From NCBI RefSeq assembly GCF_028606985.1, contig NZ_CP117416.1, forward strand, positions 437,501 to 501,500: a DNA stretch of 64,000 nt, given 5' to 3'. Both the position numbers and the translations under genes were made by a program. Positions 2,272 through 10,519 of this stretch are shown piece by piece (positions within the stretch are counted from its first letter, which is position 1; each line of letters starts with the position of its first letter). The notes under the pieces were generated by a model. The model had not been told where the DNA came from, ran no database searches, and worked only from the letters and a program-made list of their open reading frames with translations. The DNA comes from Paenibacillus kyungheensis (GTDB lineage Bacteria; Bacillota; Bacilli; Paenibacillales; Paenibacillaceae).

Positions 2272-3300
2272 ATGAATTGTAGCGGTTGCAGTTATGTTCA
2301 GCCGATAGAAGACCAAGGAACAGTGTCCTTGCGACCGCTTTCTTCTTCTCTTGAAAATCTAATTCGACAACAGTCTTATGATACGTATATCATGGAAGAT
2401 ATTTGCTCTATTTCATATCAATCAAGAGAACAGATGCTTGATATCATGCACTGGGTACGAAGTTTACCTGAAGAAATTACATCTTGTGTATCTGTAGGTT
2501 TGTTAGGTTCAGACGATATTGGCGGAGAGCCGGTATGGTTGCCATTGTCTGTATTTGTTAATCGACTACAGCATGACGATGTTGTTGAAATTATTCGACA
2601 AAAGCAATTTACAAGCCATATGCAACCGATTGTGAATCAACATGAGCAAGTTATTGCTTATGAATTTTTGCTTCGTCCGATTATAGATGGCCCTACATTT
2701 CAGCCGTATCGCTTATTCGATATTGCGCATCAGACAGGGTTACACTCATTTTTGGATCGGGCAGCTCGTATTTCAGCGATTGAGACGAGTGCGCAATATT
2801 TACAACCAGGTATCAAACGCTTTATTAACTTTTTACCATCTTCTATTTACAATCCGCAGTATTGTTTGAGTCATACGTTTGCTGCTATTGAGCGTCTTCA
2901 TTTAAATCCAAAAGACTTTGTATTTGAAGTGGTTGAAACCGAAAATATTGTTGAAATGCCTAAGTTACAAAATATCTTTGATGTGTATCGCAGTAATGGG
3001 ATATCTGTTGCTTTGGATGATGTAGGTTCAGGATATTCCAAGCCTGAATTAATCGATCATCTACAACCCGATTATGTCAAAATCGATCGTAGCTTAATCG
3101 ATCATTGTGATATCTCTGCTGAGAAACAGCAAAAAATTATTCATATTTTGCAGCGTTCGCAAAATCATGGTTCTACTGTGTTGGCAGAAGGCATAGAGCG
3201 ACGTGAAGAATACGACTTTTGCCGTAGTATCGGAATTGAGCTAGCACAGGGTTACTTATTCGGTAAGCCTGCCGAATACCCTCGTCAAATGCTAGGTTAA
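2272..3300 (+). CDS. EAL-domain cyclic-di-GMP phosphodiesterase-like protein
   Basis: 342 residues with AAGGAGG eight bases before ATG. The N-terminal ~105 residues are unassigned and start with a CxxC (C3, C6). Residues ~110-338 form an EAL domain. The signature reads E131-F-L instead of EAL, but the other ligands of active enzymes are present: N186, E219, D249-D250, K270, E306 and QGYLFG at 326-331. No membrane segment is seen, so it is probably cytoplasmic. Hydrolysis of c-di-GMP to pGpG is likely; a binding-only role is possible. A GGDEF cyclase lies at 44 kb in the same window. The gene is monocistronic, with terminators on both sides. Confidence 0.88.
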   Translation: MNCSGCSYVQPIEDQGTVSLRPLSSSLENLIRQQSYDTYIMEDICSISYQSREQMLDIMHWVRSLPEEITSCVSVGLLGSDDIGGEPVWLPLSVFVNRLQHDDVVEIIRQKQFTSHMQPIVNQHEQVIAYEFLLRPIIDGPTFQPYRLFDIAHQTGLHSFLDRAARISAIETSAQYLQPGIKRFINFLPSSIYNPQYCLSHTFAAIERLHLNPKDFVFEVVETENIVEMPKLQNIFDVYRSNGISVALDDVGSGYSKPELIDHLQPDYVKIDRSLIDHCDISAEKQQKIIHILQRSQNHGSTVLAEGIERREEYDFCRSIGIELAQGYLFGKPAEYPRQMLG

Positions 3301-3335
3301 ATGATTGGATGTATGACTCCTATCTTGATATTTCC

Positions 3336-3392
3336 AAAAAGACTTTTCTTCTCAAAGTACATGAACTTGTACTGAAAAGAAAAGTCTTTTTT
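3336..3392. terminator. Bidirectional terminator between EAL gene and MFS gene
   Basis: A 15-bp perfect inverted repeat (3336-3350 with 3377-3391) ending in T-runs on both strands, with a nested AGTACA/TGTACT stem, sits between the two convergent genes. Confidence 0.9.
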
Positions 3393-3411
3393 AGATTATT
3401 CCTATCTTTAT

Positions 3412-4698
3412 TTATGAAGATTCAGTAGCTTGCTTAGAAGTAGATGCTACGGTTGGTTCAGAACGAGACTCTTGTAATAAATGCTTGAATTTGGAGGTAC
3501 AAGCGATAATCAGTATAAATACTATAAGAGCAATACCAGCAATCGTCGTTAGTGTAATCAGATTAAAGTAACGTGCTACAATTCCCCCGGATAATAAGCC
3601 TAAAATAATACCTAAAGTAGTTAATGTTTGTAGTATAGAAATCCCTCGACCTCGAAAAGGTTTGGGTGTGATTTTCAAAAAAATAGAAGTGATAGGTAGA
3701 TTAATCAAAGCATTGATAATCCCGATCGCTAGGCTCCATACATAAATAGGAGAAAGATTTGTAGCATGAATATAATTAAGTGGAGTCACACAGCTCATTA
3801 GTATACCAAAAGCAATAATAGTACATAACAAGAGTAGACTAGAATTTAATTTACGTAATAAAAAAGGGCCTATAATTGCTCCTACGACAGCTCCAATTCC
3901 TTCTATACTTTGAATCTGACCATAATCGATAGCAGGTAAACGAAATACTTGAAGCAAAATAGAAGTATACGTTGTATCAAATATCCCGGCAACAAACATA
4001 AAAGGAATCAAAATCATAAGCAAAAAGAACAGCGAAGGGATACGGTAAACAGTTTTAAGACCGGAAATCATTGATGCCCAGATCGGTTCGTGAGTTACTT
4101 TTTCTTCTGGCGTAAGATCAAGTTTGGCTTTGGATACAATAAATGAATTAGCAATCATAATAAATATAATAGAAAAGAGATATGATAAAATATCGAGTAC
4201 AAAAATCATAGATACTGAAGTAGTGGTTAATAATAATCCAGCAATCGCAGGGCCTATAATGTAGACAGTAAAATAAGTACTTTGACTAATCGACATAGCT
4301 TCATTAACATGATTCTCACCAACAATATCGGGAATAAAGGAAGTGCGGGCCGGGTAAAAAATAGTTGTACCGATTCCTTTCAAAAAAACCAAAACAATAA
4401 GAGCAAGTGGAGAAGCTATACATAGAATCATAATAATATTGATCACAATTCTGAATACATCCATATAAATCATTACCAGATGCTTAGGAAAACGGTCAGC
4501 AATGGATCCTGCAAACAAACCAAAAGCTGTCGTTGCAAACAACTCTGCAAAAATTACTAAACTAATAAAAATAGGATCTGACGAATTGGAACCTATTAGA
4601 AAAATGATGGCTGTAGTGGCTATCGCATCACCCAGTCTAGAAAAGACTTGTGCTAGCCAAAAATGAAGAAACGCGGGTATTCGAAATAAAGCTAGCAT
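3412..4698 (-). CDS. MFS efflux transporter (MFS_3 / macrolide-efflux-like)
   Basis: 428 residues and about 12 hydrophobic segments. The N-terminus carries the WLAQVFSRLGDAI pattern typical of EntS/MefA-like exporters, and a GSIADRFPKH loop lies between helices 2 and 3. AAAGGAG precedes the ATG. It is the last gene of a minus-strand unit, 28 nt after the CapA-like gene and after a methyltransferase and a 10-codon minigene. That position suggests it exports the product of the unit or protects the cell from it; this is inference. The substrate cannot be determined. The terminal tail is Ser/Thr-rich and hydrophilic. Confidence 0.85.
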   Translation of the reverse strand: MLALFRIPAFLHFWLAQVFSRLGDAIATTAIIFLIGSNSSDPIFISLVIFAELFATTAFGLFAGSIADRFPKHLVMIYMDVFRIVINIIMILCIASPLALIVLVFLKGIGTTIFYPARTSFIPDIVGENHVNEAMSISQSTYFTVYIIGPAIAGLLLTTTSVSMIFVLDILSYLFSIIFIMIANSFIVSKAKLDLTPEEKVTHEPIWASMISGLKTVYRIPSLFFLLMILIPFMFVAGIFDTTYTSILLQVFRLPAIDYGQIQSIEGIGAVVGAIIGPFLLRKLNSSLLLLCTIIAFGILMSCVTPLNYIHATNLSPIYVWSLAIGIINALINLPITSIFLKITPKPFRGRGISILQTLTTLGIILGLLSGGIVARYFNLITLTTIAGIALIVFILIIACTSKFKHLLQESRSEPTVASTSKQATESS

Positions 4699-4726
4699 AT
4701 TCCATCTCCTTTACGATGCAATATCT

Positions 4727-6037
4727 TTAGTATATTAACTTGCCTGTACCATCTGATTGAACCTCAAAATGAACGTCATATGAAGAAGATAATGTATTCA
4801 ATTGCTCAATGATTGAGGTCTGATTACTAAAAGTTGGACAACCTCTACGATAACGTGGTAATTCATGTCCAAGTGAGATAGGATGAATCGCTAAATCTAT
4901 TAATTTGCCATTATCCATTGTCCACGAAGGCACAAATGATTGCCAGAACTTGAGATTAGCACCAAAGCTAGAAGTACCGTTTTTACTTTTTTTATCCAGT
5001 AAGTCTGCAATATTATGGGTATGATTTAAATTTAAATGGTTATAAAAATCAGCTGGTGCTGATTCTACAGTTTCATTTTGAAAAATAAAGTTACCTAATC
5101 CATAAAAAATAGGACGTTCTTGATAGATTTCAATACCACGAATATGATGAGGACCGTGACAGATCATAGCATGTGCGCCTTCATCAATACATCCTCTACA
5201 GAATTCTTTTAAAAAATCAGCCGGTTCATTCTCATTTTCGTCTTTCATTTCATGGGAATGTACACTTAAAATCACATAATCTGCTTGGCGTTTGGCTTCA
5301 TGAATAGATTGGTAGATACGCTGGGTATCTATCGGATTGCAACTGGTAAAAGTACCTTCCTGAGAGGGATCATCTACTTCGACAAAATCATACTCACCAA
5401 ACATAAAAAAAGAATCTGGAAGTTGATCGAGTAAATGTCCATGTTGCATCGCAATATTGATTTCTGCATTAATAGAAGTTACAGCTGTTAATTCTTTTAA
5501 TTGTTGCATATGAGTAGAGCTGATCTGATGAACAGTGTTGTATCTTAAAGGATTGATACCGGGACGACCAGAACAATCTACACGGCTTTCTCCAGCAATA
5601 GCTGATTCATGAAAAGTAGAAGTGACACCAATGACTGCAATACGACCTTGAGGTGTTTCTAAGTATTTGGGTTTACTTGCGGTATGTAGAGTAGAGCCAG
5701 CACCGCAATATAATAGATTCAATGCACTGATATATTTTTCAGTAGCTGCCAAACCGCCATAAGAATAATCAAGCATATGATTGTTAGCGATCGATAATAT
5801 ATTAAATCCATATGATTGCAAATGTTGTAAAACCTCGGGAGTTGCTGATGCCCATGTTCCTCCACTTTGAGCAGCAGGGAATCCTTCTTCCATACGGATT
5901 GTTGTTTCTAAATTGGTTAATCGTACATCATGCTTTTGAATAAAAGGAACTAACTGTTCCAAAGATAAATGACCGGGAGAAATTCGAGTAATAAAGCTAT
6001 CACCTGTAGCTACAAAAGATACGGTCGAATTAGACAT
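4727..6037 (-). CDS. CapA-family metallophosphatase-like protein (PGA capsule synthesis family)
   Basis: The start chosen is the ATG encoding MSNSTVSF (436 residues), because GAAAGGAT lies 12 bases before it; a longer TTG start lacks a site. CapA-family marks run along the protein: FVATGDSFITR at the start, RLTNLETTIR, SIANNHMLDY, VHSHEMKD, then CHGPHHIRG and YGLGNFIF. There is no signal peptide or membrane anchor, unlike capsule CapA/PgsA proteins, and no capB/capC genes are nearby. This suggests a cytoplasmic enzyme in small-molecule or peptide metabolism rather than polyglutamate capsule. It sits between a minigene-hairpin element and an exporter. The exact reaction is unknown. Confidence 0.8.
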   Translation of the reverse strand: MSNSTVSFVATGDSFITRISPGHLSLEQLVPFIQKHDVRLTNLETTIRMEEGFPAAQSGGTWASATPEVLQHLQSYGFNILSIANNHMLDYSYGGLAATEKYISALNLLYCGAGSTLHTASKPKYLETPQGRIAVIGVTSTFHESAIAGESRVDCSGRPGINPLRYNTVHQISSTHMQQLKELTAVTSINAEINIAMQHGHLLDQLPDSFFMFGEYDFVEVDDPSQEGTFTSCNPIDTQRIYQSIHEAKRQADYVILSVHSHEMKDENENEPADFLKEFCRGCIDEGAHAMICHGPHHIRGIEIYQERPIFYGLGNFIFQNETVESAPADFYNHLNLNHTHNIADLLDKKSKNGTSSFGANLKFWQSFVPSWTMDNGKLIDLAIHPISLGHELPRYRRGCPTFSNQTSIIEQLNTLSSSYDVHFEVQSDGTGKLIY

Positions 6038-6067
6038 GAATATACAAATCCTTTCTTTTGGATAAAC

Positions 6068-6098
6068 CAAAGGCTACTGAGTATATCAGTAGCCTTTG
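6068..6098 (-). terminator. Intra-operon hairpin after the minigene (partial terminator or processing site)
   Basis: A 13-bp perfect stem (6068-6080 with 6086-6098) with a 5-nt loop lies between the 10-codon ORF and the CapA-like gene. On the minus strand it is followed by TTTGGTTTATCC, a weak T-tract, so read-through is likely. This fits differential expression of the minigene over the downstream genes. Confidence 0.7.
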
Positions 6099-6127
6099 TA
6101 GAGGTATCCGGTTGGCCGACAGACAAA

Positions 6128-6160
6128 TTAGTCAATGATGATAATACGATCTCTTTTCAT
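6128..6160 (-). CDS. 10-residue minigene with strong ribosome binding site
   Basis: On the minus strand a near-perfect Shine-Dalgarno (GGGAGGTGA) is spaced 5 bases from an ATG that opens a 10-codon ORF, MKRDRIIIID, ending in TAA. The site is better than those of most genes in the window, which argues that the short ORF is translated. It lies 53 nt after the methyltransferase stop and just before a strong hairpin. The layout resembles the mccA minigene of microcin C clusters, or alternatively a leader peptide. No MccB-like adenylating enzyme is present and the last residue is Asp, not Asn. It is too short for homology detection. Confidence 0.5.
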   Translation of the reverse strand: MKRDRIIIID

Positions 6161-6213
6161 AAATTGTCACCTCCCTCACGTAGTATAGGTATATCTATAA
6201 ATATAAATAGAGA

Positions 6214-6975
6214 TTATATTTTTTCGCAGATATATAACATTTGTGGAGAGTTCATTCGGTATGGACTTCGGTCAAAATCACCAAAAATATCAAGTACTTT
6301 GAATCCGCTACTGGATAGCATGAGATTGATTTCAGTGGCGCTAAATAATCTCATATTCAGTCTGTAATTTTTTTCAGGGCCGTCTACAGTAAGCCTTTTT
6401 TCTTCAATATGAAGTACACTGGTTGTCGGATCGAAACGGCGCTTTTCTAACATATATTTACCTTCTCCATTGCCAAACCAGGCAAGAGAGTGAAAGTTAC
6501 GTACCAGATAATCACGGTTAATCAATGTTAAAATAAATTTTCCACCCGAACGTAAGCAACTATGTATCGATTGGATAATTTTAAGATTGTCTTCATAGTC
6601 TTCGATATAACCGATAGAATTTTCTAAATTCAGTACAACATCGTAATTTTCCTGACCGACATATTCTCGTCCATCTGCAAGAATAGTTTGTACTTTTCCT
6701 TGAGAACGTTGCTGGATCAACTCTAAATATTGTTTGTTAATATCTAATCCTGTAGTGTGAAATCCCATATCAGACAGTTGTAAAATATGTCTGCCGTTAC
6801 AGCAGAAGAAGTCTAATATATTCGATTCAGTATCAGGATCAATAATAGAAGTCAGAAAATCGATTTGTTCCTGCAAGCCATCTACTAATATTTTTTTATA
6901 GACATCTAAATACGATTGATCGAAATAATTCGTGTCATAATCTTCGATAGGTTTTTTGATATCTATGTTATTCAT
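6214..6975 (-). CDS. Class I SAM-dependent methyltransferase
   Basis: 253 residues. Motif I is ILDFFCCNG at residues 53-61, followed by the acidic GLDIN (76-80) that binds the SAM ribose, then VVLNLENSIGY and a C-terminal beta-rich part (RRFDPTTSVLHIEEKR). This fits the Methyltransf_25 type acting on small molecules or peptides. An AAAGGAG site and a good sigma-A promoter (7023-7050) precede it. It is the first gene of the unit leading to the minigene, CapA-like protein and exporter, so a role in modifying the same product is inferred. The substrate is not identifiable from sequence. Confidence 0.85.
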   Translation of the reverse strand: MNNIDIKKPIEDYDTNYFDQSYLDVYKKILVDGLQEQIDFLTSIIDPDTESNILDFFCCNGRHILQLSDMGFHTTGLDINKQYLELIQQRSQGKVQTILADGREYVGQENYDVVLNLENSIGYIEDYEDNLKIIQSIHSCLRSGGKFILTLINRDYLVRNFHSLAWFGNGEGKYMLEKRRFDPTTSVLHIEEKRLTVDGPEKNYRLNMRLFSATEINLMLSSSGFKVLDIFGDFDRSPYRMNSPQMLYICEKI

Positions 6976-7022
6976 TGGAAGTTAACTCCTTTAGTTTGAA
7001 TTAAATCCATTTGTTGTAAGTT

Positions 7023-7050
7023 ATTATATCATGGTGATCTGTTTTGTAAA
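7023..7050 (-). promoter_or_regulatory. Sigma-A promoter of the methyltransferase-minigene unit
   Basis: On the minus strand TTTACA, 16 bases, TATAAT, about 50 bases upstream of the methyltransferase start. Confidence 0.7.
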
Positions 7051-7145
7051 TAGTTAATTTCAAATTTTTGGAATCTAAAGGAATATTATGGATATCACCT
7101 TAAATTTGATGTGAGATTAAGTAACTTATAAAAGAAAATAAATAA

Positions 7146-7217
7146 AAACTCATCAATTCACCTCTACTTTTATAAGTAAATTATTACTTATAGCAGTAAA
7201 AGTATATTGATGAGTTT
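7146..7217 (-). terminator. Terminator of the mannitol operon
   Basis: A 12-bp outer stem AAACTCATCAAT/ATTGATGAGTTT encloses further pairing and ends in a T-rich stretch on the minus strand, 30 bases after mtlD. Confidence 0.7.
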
Positions 7218-7246
7218 GGATAATAAAACGTAATTATCTATTTTGC

Positions 7247-8401
7247 TTAGCTTTTTAGAGATTTCAACTCTTCATAAGCAGTGATGACTTTATTATAGTC
7301 TTCGCTGTCTTTGGCAAATCCTGTTACATCGCTGACGACAGGGCCAAAGCCTTCGGCTTGAATACGTCCTTGTAGTTCAGCAGATTGAGGATCAGCTGTA
7401 TTGTCATAGTGGAATGCAGCAGCAATCCCTTTGAGCAAATGATCGCGTCCGAGATCAAATTCAGTTGCCATTTTTACAGGGCCTACCAGACGATCAGCTT
7501 GTCCTAATTTGCGTAAAGGTTCGCGTCCTACACGAATCACTTCATCACGAATATATGGATTTTTGAAGCGAGTTTCGATTTTATCGATGTATTTGGCATG
7601 TTCGCCTGCATCGAAGCCATGTTTTTGTACAAGAGCTGCGCCGCTTTCTTCCATCGCTGGACGTACAATCGCACGTACACCTTCATCTTGAATACTTTGG
7701 TCAATCGTTTCTAGACCTTTCAAGAAACCGATATAGGCTGTAATAGCATGACCTGTATTCAGTGTGAACAGTTTACGTTGTACATAAGCAACCAGATTGT
7801 CTGTAAGCTTCATACCATCAATTTCAGGTGTACCACCTTTAAGTTTAGGCTCTTCTACAATCCACTCGTGGAAGGCTTCTACACCTACATCTAGAATGCT
7901 GTCACCCTGGAAAGGAGGAACGATACGGTCTACAGAACAATTGGCAAAGCCGACATTTTGATCAGCATAGGCTTTACCTTCTTCTGAAAGGTGAGTCAGT
8001 ACTTGCTCTTGTAGATGACTTGTGGCACCAACCATATTTTCACAAGCGATAATATTCAGTGAACCACCGCCTGCTGTACGTCTAGCTTCAATTCCTTGTG
8101 CAATCGTAGGCGCAATAAATTTGAGTACATTTGGCCCTACTGCGGTTGTAATAATGTCTGCACTAGCAATTTCATCAATAATGTCTGTACCATTAGAAAG
8201 ACAACCAGATACATTGGTAATCGTTTCTACGCTTTTTTCCAGATCAAGAATATGAATCTGGTAGCTTTTTTTCTCATTCAGTTCATTAATCATTTGTTCG
8301 TTAATATCTGCAAAAACCACGTGATAGCCTGCATTAGACAATAAAGCTCCGATAAATCCACGACCGATATTTCCTGCACCAAATTGAATCGCTTTTTTCA
8401 T
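7247..8401 (-). CDS. mtlD: Mannitol-1-phosphate 5-dehydrogenase
   Basis: 384 residues, the usual length. The N-terminal Rossmann motif is FGAGNIGRGF (7-16). The family stretches NVGFANCSVDRIVPP, ERKLFTLNTGHA-like (VQRKLFTLNTGHA) and EFDLGRDHLLKGI are present. It oxidises mannitol 1-phosphate to fructose 6-phosphate with NAD+, the step after PTS uptake. GGAGGTG precedes the ATG. It is the third gene of mtlR-mtlA-mtlD, separated from mtlA by 150 nt that hold a hairpin. Confidence 0.97.
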   Translation of the reverse strand: MKKAIQFGAGNIGRGFIGALLSNAGYHVVFADINEQMINELNEKKSYQIHILDLEKSVETITNVSGCLSNGTDIIDEIASADIITTAVGPNVLKFIAPTIAQGIEARRTAGGGSLNIIACENMVGATSHLQEQVLTHLSEEGKAYADQNVGFANCSVDRIVPPFQGDSILDVGVEAFHEWIVEEPKLKGGTPEIDGMKLTDNLVAYVQRKLFTLNTGHAITAYIGFLKGLETIDQSIQDEGVRAIVRPAMEESGAALVQKHGFDAGEHAKYIDKIETRFKNPYIRDEVIRVGREPLRKLGQADRLVGPVKMATEFDLGRDHLLKGIAAAFHYDNTADPQSAELQGRIQAEGFGPVVSDVTGFAKDSEDYNKVITAYEELKSLKS

Positions 8402-8505
8402 AATATTGCACCTCCGTAAGTATTTGTAGGATTTCCTTCTGTATATAACCAGAAGCCATCCTTAATGTGTAGCTTATATAAGCAAAAGTAGATATAAACA
8501 GGTTA

Positions 8506-8531
8506 AATCAGCAACGAGATCGCTGCTGATT
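8506..8531 (-). other. Intercistronic hairpin between mtlA and mtlD
   Basis: AATCAGCA/TGCTGATT is an 8-bp perfect stem, extended to 12 bp with one mismatch by flanking GGTT/AACC. No T-run follows on the minus strand, so it looks like an RNA-stabilising or processing element rather than a terminator. Confidence 0.5.
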
Positions 8532-8551
8532 CAACCGGAATAACTATAGGA

Positions 8552-10519
8552 TTAGATTGAGAATGTGCGATAGATTTCTTCAGCATCTGTGACTTTAGCT
8601 AAATGTTGTACAGTCGCTTCATCTTCAATCGTTTCAGCAATTTTAGTCAGGATTTGAAGATGTTCTCCACCTGCACCAGCAATACCGATTACAAGATAAG
8701 CAGTACCGCCTTCAAATTCCACACCATTTGGATACTGTAGAACAACAATACCGGATGTTTGAATTTGTTTTTTCGCTTCACCGACACCATGAGGAATCGC
8801 TACACCGTTACCGATGTAAGTAGAAGCTACTTTTTCACGCTCATGCATCGCTGCAATATAATCATGTTTGACATAACCAGCAGCAGCTAGCATTTCGCCT
8901 GCTTTGTTAATCGCATCTTCTTTCGATGTGCTAGCAAGACCTAATACAATATTTTCTTTACGCAAAATGGTAGAACCTGCGTTAGACGTTGTTGTATCTT
9001 GTACCACATGTGGTGCATTGTGACTCAATACATCACTGACTTCTTGTTTCACACCAGCAGCATTATCTGGAATAGAAGAGTCAGGGCTACCTGCTGTAGC
9101 TGATTTTAAACGTTCAATCATATCATCATAGATCGGATTGTTAATAAAGTTATCAATCGATACATGCTGTGCATTTGGTGCTTTACCTTTAGCACGGCTT
9201 GTTAGATTTTGTTGAGTCACGACGATATCTGCATCAGAAGGAATCGCATCAATCGCTGTATTGGTTACATTGATCGGTAGACCTGCTTGTTGTACTTTTT
9301 TGCGGAAAGAAGAAGCACCCATAGCACTTGAACCCATACCTGCATCACAAGCAAATACGATTTTGCGAACTTCACCTGTTTGAAGATCGTTAGCAGATGT
9401 CAAAGCAGGACCACCAGCGTTACCGCCAGACTTCATGTTTTTGGAAGCGGCTTGAGCTTTTTCCAAATCTTCATCGCTTGGAGCTTTGCGTAAGAAGATC
9501 GCTGAGAAAATGAAGGAGACAATGGCTGCTGCGGCCACACCTGCTAATACAACCAGATGACCACCTTTTGGTGCTAGACCTAAGATTGCAAAAATACTAC
9601 CTGGAGAAGCAGCACTGGTTAGACCACTACCTAGGATACTATTTGTAAATACGCCAGCCATACCGCCAAGAATAACAGCAACAAACAAGATTGGACGCAT
9701 CAATACATAAGGGAAGTATACTTCATGAATACCACCAAAGAATTGAATAATGATTGCACCTGGAGCAGAACCTTTAATTGTACCTTTACCGAAGATCCAG
9801 TAAGCCAACAATACACCAAGACCCGGCCCTGGATTCGCTTCTAAAAGATAGAAAATAGATTTACCCGTTTCTAGAGATTGTTGCGCACCTAGTGGTGTAA
9901 AGATACCGTGGTTAATTGCATTATTTAAGAATAAAATTTTACCTGGTTCTACAAAGATCGAAACCAATGGTAAAAGATTATGAGCAACCAAGAAGTTAAC
10001 ACCTGATTCTACTAGCAAAGTAAATGCTTGTACCAATGGACCGATACCGACAAAGCCCAGAATCGCAAGCAACATACCGATAATACCAGCAGAGAAGTTG
10101 TTAACCAACATTTCAAAACCGGATTTTACTTTACCTTCGATCAATTTATCGAACTGTTTGATGACATATCCACCAAGTGGACCCATAATCATTGCACCGA
10201 TAAACATTGGAATTTCAGCACCGACGATAACACCCATAGCGGCAATCGCACCGAGTACACCACCACGATGATCAGCAACGACTTTACCACCTGTATAAGC
10301 AATCAATAAAGGAAGCAAATATTTGATCATTGGATCAACCATTGTTGCTAGTGTAGCATTAGGCCAGTAACCTGTTGGAATAAATAAAGCAGTAAGTAGA
10401 CCCCAAGCGATAAAAGCACCGATATTCGGCATAATCATAGAACTTAGAAAGCGTCCGAATGCTTGTACGCGATCACGAGCACTTTTTCTTTCTTTTGTAG
10501 CTGTCTGCACAGAACTCAT
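8552..10519 (-). CDS. mtlA: PTS mannitol transporter, EIICBA
   Basis: 655 residues. The EIIC membrane domain spans ~20-345 and contains the GGIHE motif (262-266). EIIB (~384-475) has its phospho-cysteine C391 in FACDAGMGSSAMG. EIIA (~520-655) has the phospho-histidine H577 in IPHGVGEAK. It takes up mannitol and phosphorylates it to mannitol 1-phosphate. Because EIIA is fused, no separate mtlF is expected. Its ATG overlaps the mtlR stop (ATGA), so the two are translationally coupled. Confidence 0.97.
   Translation of the reverse strand: MSSVQTATKERKSARDRVQAFGRFLSSMIMPNIGAFIAWGLLTALFIPTGYWPNATLATMVDPMIKYLLPLLIAYTGGKVVADHRGGVLGAIAAMGVIVGAEIPMFIGAMIMGPLGGYVIKQFDKLIEGKVKSGFEMLVNNFSAGIIGMLLAILGFVGIGPLVQAFTLLVESGVNFLVAHNLLPLVSIFVEPGKILFLNNAINHGIFTPLGAQQSLETGKSIFYLLEANPGPGLGVLLAYWIFGKGTIKGSAPGAIIIQFFGGIHEVYFPYVLMRPILFVAVILGGMAGVFTNSILGSGLTSAASPGSIFAILGLAPKGGHLVVLAGVAAAAIVSFIFSAIFLRKAPSDEDLEKAQAASKNMKSGGNAGGPALTSANDLQTGEVRKIVFACDAGMGSSAMGASSFRKKVQQAGLPINVTNTAIDAIPSDADIVVTQQNLTSRAKGKAPNAQHVSIDNFINNPIYDDMIERLKSATAGSPDSSIPDNAAGVKQEVSDVLSHNAPHVVQDTTTSNAGSTILRKENIVLGLASTSKEDAINKAGEMLAAAGYVKHDYIAAMHEREKVASTYIGNGVAIPHGVGEAKKQIQTSGIVVLQYPNGVEFEGGTAYLVIGIAGAGGEHLQILTKIAETIEDEATVQHLAKVTDAEEIYRTFSI

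Follow-up and report, generated by a model that had tools for sequence, protein, structure and literature searches.

Within a 64,000-nucleotide stretch of Paenibacillus kyungheensis DNA (contig NZ_CP117416.1, positions 437,501 to 501,500; this whole stretch is called the window here), a ten-codon minigene, a methyltransferase, a CapA-like protein and an exporter form a unit that we read, with reasonable though far from complete confidence, as the gene cluster of a leaderless ribosomally synthesized and post-translationally modified peptide (RiPP): the decapeptide MKRDRIIIID would be methylated, epimerised at its C-terminal Asp where the gene for that step is present, and exported. All parts lie on the minus strand, namely a promoter-like site (7023–7050), a class I S-adenosylmethionine (SAM) methyltransferase (6214–6975), the minigene of the proposed leaderless precursor (6128–6160) with its Shine-Dalgarno (SD) sequence GGGAGGTGA (6167–6175), a 13-bp hairpin in the gap that follows (6068–6098), the PGA_cap (CapA-like) protein (4727–6037) and an MFS_3-type exporter of the major facilitator superfamily (MFS; 3412–4698). 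A first-pass annotation of the stretch had described this same layout, and every part was located where it had been placed.

The reading rests first on the minigene. Its SD contains an 8-nt match to the anti-SD, GGAGGTGA, which ends 6 nt before the ATG and is the longest such match among the 27 ATG-started open reading frames (ORFs) in the 64 kb that encode 5–30 amino acids behind an SD of at least 6 bases, in keeping with the annotation's remark that the site is one of the best in the window. When 398 genomes of the class were searched with the methyltransferase, 107 gave matches at E up to 1e-20; beyond the window, those more than 40% identical were confined to G771 (44%, locus L211) and G661 (43%, locus L212), two genomes of one order, distinct from that of the window. 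L212 has the order and strand of the window, with the methyltransferase (43% identical), the minigene MKRDTVIIIVID, a hairpin, the CapA-like protein (49%) and, in the same position, the MFS protein (39%). There, the SD of the minigene, AAGGAGGTGA, falls within the 3' end of the methyltransferase gene, whose stop codon is overlapped by the minigene ATG (ATGA). The hairpins of the two loci occupy the same position and fold at -21.1 kcal/mol in the window (z -6.4; 0/200 shuffles equal it) and at -24.5 kcal/mol in L212 (z -6.7). The window hairpin, which we propose to be a partial terminator or an RNA-stabilising element, is absent from the terminator-like sites of our scan, which fits the weak T-tract that the annotation had noted beside it.

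Compared with 2000 pairs of dinucleotide-shuffled regions, the peptides of the window and L212 form a higher-scoring pair than all 2000 if an SD of 5 bases or more is demanded, and than 1999 without that demand. The sequences 3' of the two minigenes (90 and 115 bases) give no alignment signal, 322 of 500 mononucleotide shuffles aligning as well; because this spacer aligns no better than shuffles, it is the ORF itself that is kept. Across the three loci the peptides are 10, 12 and 13 residues long, and all retain the N-terminal K/E-R-D/N residues, an Ile run and a final Asp. A filter for four successive I/V/L residues and a final D/N/E, picked after the three peptides had been viewed and thus a census rather than a test, gave 54 matches among the 823 ORFs with a strong SD, out of 51,903 short ORFs in the 1.69 Mb that the window and the often overlapping loci add up to; 52 of the matches represent the three known places, through overlapping loci and alternative GTG starts, and the other two (L075, L083) are unrelated. 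None of four loci with weaker methyltransferase matches (L222–L225) has such a minigene. Judged by its conservation, the short ORF is not a product of chance. The annotation had asked whether a short ORF with a strong ribosome binding site and the same C-terminal residues is kept beside the flanking genes elsewhere, and had named its loss in relatives as the outcome that would speak against a functional unit; minigenes with a strong ribosome binding site and a C-terminal Asp are present beside the methyltransferase in both distant genomes.

Behind the L211 methyltransferase come a single small ORF, nine tandem MERNTVIIIIIPD minigenes, a hairpin and an MFS gene, in that order. The nine 13-codon minigenes (5050–5778, minus strand) are spaced 42–46 bp apart, each with AGGAGGTGA, and encode one peptide that is identical in 9/9 copies: the two variable columns of the ORF are synonymous, and the eight spacers all differ. 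The hairpin after the array stands out little from shuffled sequence (z -1.8; 12/200 shuffles as good). All eight spacers carry CCTTCTAA, located after the preceding stop, and TTAGGAGG, and pairing between the two is possible and would hide the SD; one spacer, when folded, gave a weak SD-pairing helix (23/200 shuffles as good). The N-termini of two small ORFs of the locus, at 5823–5957 and 6969–7133 on the minus strand (44 and 54 codons), look hydrophobic by eye. An HTH-TPR protein is encoded on the plus strand at 8142–9530, about 2.4 kb from the array. Together, the small ORFs and this protein make regulation of the array by peptide signalling possible.

What, then, does the CapA-like protein do? 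We took its gene to start at ATG 6037 and to stop at 4727, the mechanical ORF beginning at TTG 6070, and by eye only the protein was judged to lack a signal sequence. Residues 11–435 match the NCBIfam model epimerase_MslH (NF038314; E 1.4e-81, 274 bits), and the protein also matches the MslH crystal chains in the PDB (E 2e-70). In the part of the MslH study drawn on here, the catalytic residues are D11, H88, D91 and H295, arranged in the dyads D11-H295 and H88-D91, with E44, N87, H259 and H261 as Ca ligands (PMC10406935). The window protein retains all eight, as do 30 of the 32 aligned rows with the window included; the exceptions are L170 (E at D91) and L137 (G at D11). In the Trp pocket of MslH, G60, G61 and F356 are kept, while G62, L64, I319, Y345, L348 and L355 are replaced by T, A, N, L, K and S, and the C-terminal residue of the window protein's substrate is probably not Trp. 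In a tree of the 32 proteins, those of the window and L212 are sisters (86/81) and are joined by L182 and L166 (82/90). The CapA-like protein is best read as a predicted MslH-type peptide C-terminal epimerase.

In all three loci the best NCBIfam model of the methyltransferase is daptide_MTase, under the cut-off, and a profile search of the PDB returned an unnamed putative methyltransferase first (9ri2, E 5e-23) and the cypemycin N-terminal methyltransferase CypM fourth (7wzg, E 1.3e-10). By these matches it is distantly related to the RiPP N-methyltransferases of the daptide and CypM kind, and because of these relatives N-methylation is its likeliest reaction; its structure model was weak (pLDDT 67) and was not used. 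As for the exporter, the MFS protein has matches to both MFS_1 and MFS_3 in each of the three loci.

The unit is, by its sequence, a discrete acquired insertion of low GC content. It occupies 3301–7206 (about 3.9 kb, edges approximate) between an EAL-domain gene (2272–3300) and mtlD (7247–8401), which lie only 111–290 bp apart in 5 of 15 further genomes from the genus; homology to the nearest uninterrupted locus (L171) picks up again at 7207. The 10 remaining genomes, whose EAL genes are only 56–58% identical and have no mtlD within 1.5 kb on either side, are uninformative on the site. The GC fraction falls to 0.343 in the insertion, compared with 0.393 over the whole window, and every 3906-bp segment sampled at 200-bp steps is richer in GC; the 15 other genomes contain no close CapA-like homologue, their matches being 27–35% identical over about 90–115 residues. 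A long A+T-rich inverted repeat with sub-threshold matches to Rfam hairpin families spans the right edge (7143–7220) and may be a terminator or a trace of the insertion event. The insertion contains only the methyltransferase, PGA_cap and MFS genes, with no protease, no regulator and no capsule gene. A poly-gamma-glutamate or capsule function was rejected as the best reading of the CapA-like gene, since the match to MslH runs over the full length and the insertion has no gene for a capsule.

A few further features of the region deserve mention. The promoter-like site reads TTTACA-16-TATAAT, its second hexamer being preceded by TG, and is a consensus match only: it matches 11 of 12 consensus bases in a promoter scan that finds 18 such sites over the whole stretch against a shuffle mean of 19.8, hence no excess. 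Upstream of it, a 17-codon ORF, MSFYLFSFISYLISHQI, with the SD GAGGTGA lies on the minus strand at 7100–7153; it was weighed as a possible second minigene but not adopted, and no similar peptide was seen upstream of the L211 methyltransferase. An Rfam scan of 5950–7300 at E up to 1 gave seven matches, all under their gathering scores. The unit was also considered as an anti-phage defence system, a reading dropped after PADLOC yielded only two methyltransferase-model matches (mad2, DrmMII).

Based on these findings, we propose that a formyl-Met decapeptide would be made in large amounts via the strong SD, and that it would be kept in excess over the enzymes by the hairpin that follows the lone minigene in the window and in L212, or by the nine copies in L211. 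The SAM methyltransferase would then methylate the decapeptide, most likely on nitrogen, the MslH-type metal-dependent epimerase would turn the C-terminal L-Asp into D-Asp where its gene is present, and the MFS protein would export the modified peptide. Since the insertion encodes no protease, the peptide may be used whole. For the number of minigenes, the six bytA copies of one Lysinibacillus strain, reported in the biarylitide literature cited below, are a precedent. That the decapeptide is modified by the CapA-like enzyme and the methyltransferase was already the core of the first-pass proposal, and it gains from the kept ORF and the epimerase kinship. More tentatively, and with slightly less than even confidence, we suggest that the unit represents a new RiPP type, with leaderless, Ile-rich minigene peptides of 10–13 residues, an MslH-type calcineurin-fold epimerase outside lasso peptides, a C-terminal D-Asp combined with N-methylation, and peptide excess through a hairpin or nine minigenes, whose product would possibly be a chemically armoured leaderless signal. 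The peptide strings had no match in the open-licence literature, and among the matches listed there for minigenes and RiPPs, MslH, and PGA_cap or CapA, no title or abstract start described the unit.

Several observations weigh against the RiPP reading. The first is rarity: just three loci of the unit were found. The methyltransferase searches covered 398 genomes of the class (with a single sequence), 42 of the order of G661 and G771, 379 of the window's family and 383 of the phylum, with overlap among them, as part of 1991 overlapping genome look-ups overall, and across class, order, family and phylum only the window, G661 and G771 had an identity above 40% or an E-value better than 1e-100. 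Viral contigs scanned with the methyltransferase, the CapA-like protein, a methyltransferase alignment and the minigene pattern held no relative, and a phage collection gave one weak methyltransferase match (22%). Plasmid methyltransferase homologues were at most 33% identical among the matches listed, and a plasmid search with the array DNA gave no match. The second concerns the enzymes. The MslH-type proteins of the window and L212, at 274 and 282 bits, are far below the model's cut-off of 700, and the window methyltransferase reaches 48 bits where the cut-off of daptide_MTase is 175. CapA-like homologues with 46–50% identity outside the unit largely have the same pocket changes and the same catalytic residues; because the changes are common to them, the pocket indicates only that the last residue is probably not Trp. 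Likewise, Lys or Arg stands at the L348 position (K350 in the window) in 29 of the 32 aligned rows, so K350 is not specific to minigenes ending in Asp. The pairing of window and L212 in the tree has modest support, on long branches, and the window hairpin lacks a T-tract as judged by the terminator scan. Around 14 loci with 46–50% identical CapA-like homologues in the family and order, compared over about 6 kb on each side, neither the methyltransferase nor such a minigene was nearby, and some CapA-like homologues adjoin genes of peptide or amino-acid metabolism. The third is L211 itself, where identity to the MFS protein of the window drops to 20% and no CapA-like or epimerase gene was found within the 12.7 kb around the locus, so that epimerisation is not a general requirement of the kind. 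Pairing of the SD in its spacers could, moreover, couple the translation of each copy to that of the preceding one, which leaves room for regulation.

Among the alternatives, the one that survives best concerns the function of the peptide rather than its making. The peptide could be a leaderless signal instead of an antibiotic, comparable to streptococcal leaderless communication peptides (LCPs), a possibility that we regard as rather unlikely. As far as the consulted part of the source goes, LCPs are 8–10 amino acids long, and the SHPs are Ile-rich (DIIIIVGG; PMC13361665), and near the L211 array lie the HTH-TPR protein and the two small ORFs with hydrophobic N-termini described above. However, the window insertion holds no regulator, the same part of that source does not describe LCPs as methylated or epimerised (PMC13361665), and nine copies would seem to suit bulk production better. 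A signalling role would be compatible with the chemistry proposed here.

For the chemistry, the most serious rival is that the CapA-like protein has nothing to do with the peptide. The minigene product would then be a substrate of the methyltransferase only, and the CapA-like protein would act elsewhere, on a small catabolic peptide or as a hydrolase, travelling along by chance or for self-protection. The absence of its gene from the 12.7 kb of L211, the 46–50% homologues without such a minigene, and the homologues that adjoin peptidases, dipeptide transporters or dehydrogenases all favour this explanation. Set against these are the gene order and the direct adjacency to the minigene, which are the same in two bacteria of different orders, the sister position of the two proteins in the tree, and the full set of MslH mechanism residues. 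On balance we give this explanation a lower probability still, perhaps one chance among several, and continue to favour C-terminal epimerisation of the minigene peptide.

Could the short ORF instead be a leader with a regulatory role, perhaps through attenuation at its isoleucine run, with the hairpin as the means of controlling the epimerase-like gene and the MFS gene? Ile-rich leader peptides are known from ilv operons, here too a hairpin separates a short ORF that contains an Ile run from the genes behind it, and the L211 spacers can pair the SD with bases after the preceding stop. Yet it is hard to see what an attenuator would gain from being repeated nine times in tandem, every copy behind an SD of its own, the one spacer folded forms a weak SD-pairing helix and not a terminator, the K/E-R-D/N residues of the N-terminus and the final Asp are kept in addition to the Ile run, and the downstream genes are not those of isoleucine metabolism. 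A leader peptide regulating the CapA-like and MFS genes had been the annotation's own alternative, and mainly the nine tandem copies in G771 make it improbable. A chance ORF with a good SD, finally, can practically be dismissed: the 27 ORFs counted above illustrate how common short ORFs are, but the conservation in L211 and L212, the nine-copy array, the shuffle tests and the exclusively synonymous variation within the array speak against it.

The surroundings of other CapA-like homologues are varied. At L129, one of four loci viewed in part, M20-peptidase-like, oligopeptide-transporter-like and glutamate-dehydrogenase-like genes were seen by eye around the homologue, and at L128 and its kin, also by eye, fatty-acid-like genes adjoin it. 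Annotated plasmid homologues are 31–39% identical: the one in L167 adjoins an ArgE/DapE deacylase, that in L168 M20, M55 and M28 peptidases, and that in L170, in which Glu replaces one catalytic Asp, a dipeptide ABC transporter, an Xaa-Pro peptidase and a Glu/Leu dehydrogenase; L169 has no such pattern of peptidases and transporters. It is possible that the PGA_cap proteins of L129, L167, L168 and L170 are peptide epimerases of catabolism annotated as CapA. Closer in the tree, in L182 (region 3377–7290), the MslH-type gene has upstream an MFS gene, a 139-codon ORF without a family and a protein resembling the aKG-HExxH peptide beta-hydroxylases, to which its match is sub-threshold (19.9 bits, cut-off 40), so that L182 may be another RiPP cluster, one whose precursor is longer. 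In L166, a Macrococcoides plasmid, MFS and GNAT genes lie near the MslH-type gene. The branch formed by the window, L212, L182 and L166 thus seems to sit in surroundings like those of peptide products.

If the RiPP reading is true, the unit would be a peptide-modifying system of very small size, its substrate being set by a gene of ten codons, and MslH-type epimerases would exist outside lasso peptides. The idea that PGA_cap or CapA proteins with the MslH residues are peptide epimerases would then become testable. Annotation easily overlooks such units, because minigene precursors evade gene detection, as the portion of the literature used here reports for bytA (PMC13417212).

Finally, we would like to place the unit among known systems. 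The exporter of microcin C, MccC, is an MFS protein. In addition, the consulted part of PMC6495379 describes for microcin C a formyl-Met peptide encoded by a minigene, and a hairpin that lies between this minigene and the enzyme gene. The unit resembles microcin C in both, although its window hairpin, as noted above, is not terminator-like in our scan. The unit differs in having a methyltransferase and an MslH-type protein in place of the ThiF-like MccB, and no MccB or ThiF-like adenylyltransferase was found beside the minigene among the unit genes of the window, L211 and L212. Moreover, microcin C precursors are mostly 7 residues long and end in Asn, whereas those here have 10, 12 and 13 residues and end in Asp. 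According to the same part of that source, microcin C precursors with at least 11 residues are produced more poorly (PMC6495379), and the 12- and 13-residue peptides would have to overcome such a length penalty. We therefore rejected membership in the microcin C family, given the lack of MccB and of a heptapeptide ending in Asn: of the resemblance proposed in the first-pass annotation, the likeness in layout holds and the kinship does not.

The biarylitides have a similarly tiny precursor gene, in several copies in some strains: as far as the excerpted source describes it, bytA evades gene detection and reaches up to six copies in Lysinibacillus (PMC13417212). Their products are P450 cross-linked aromatic pentapeptides, whereas the window unit has no P450, no MxYxY/H pentapeptide and no aromatic residues. 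To the daptides and cypemycin, the unit is linked by its methyltransferase, for which the daptide enzyme MpaM supplies the best NCBIfam profile and CypM one relative in the PDB; daptide formation also depends on a leader, an aminotransferase and an oxidative decarboxylase, as stated in the part of the source used (PMC10036551), and none of the three is present in the window insertion. The leaderless LCPs of 8–10 residues and the Ile-rich SHPs resemble the peptides of the unit. In contrast to those systems, the window insertion has modifying enzymes and lacks Rgg, and no cognate Rgg or RRNPP regulator divergent to the peptide gene was found in it, the HTH-TPR protein of L211 lying at the distance given above. 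MslH, the epimerase of the lasso peptide MS-271, is homologous to the window protein over its full length and has the eight catalytic and Ca-binding residues in common with it; the window protein differs by its score below the family cut-off, its largely changed Trp pocket and an insertion without the lasso B (peptidase) and C (cyclase) proteins, for which the insertion and not the rest of the genome was searched. What the unit has in common with RiPP clusters in general is a conserved short precursor gene beside genes for enzymes of peptide-modifying type and an exporter, from which modification of the peptide would follow.

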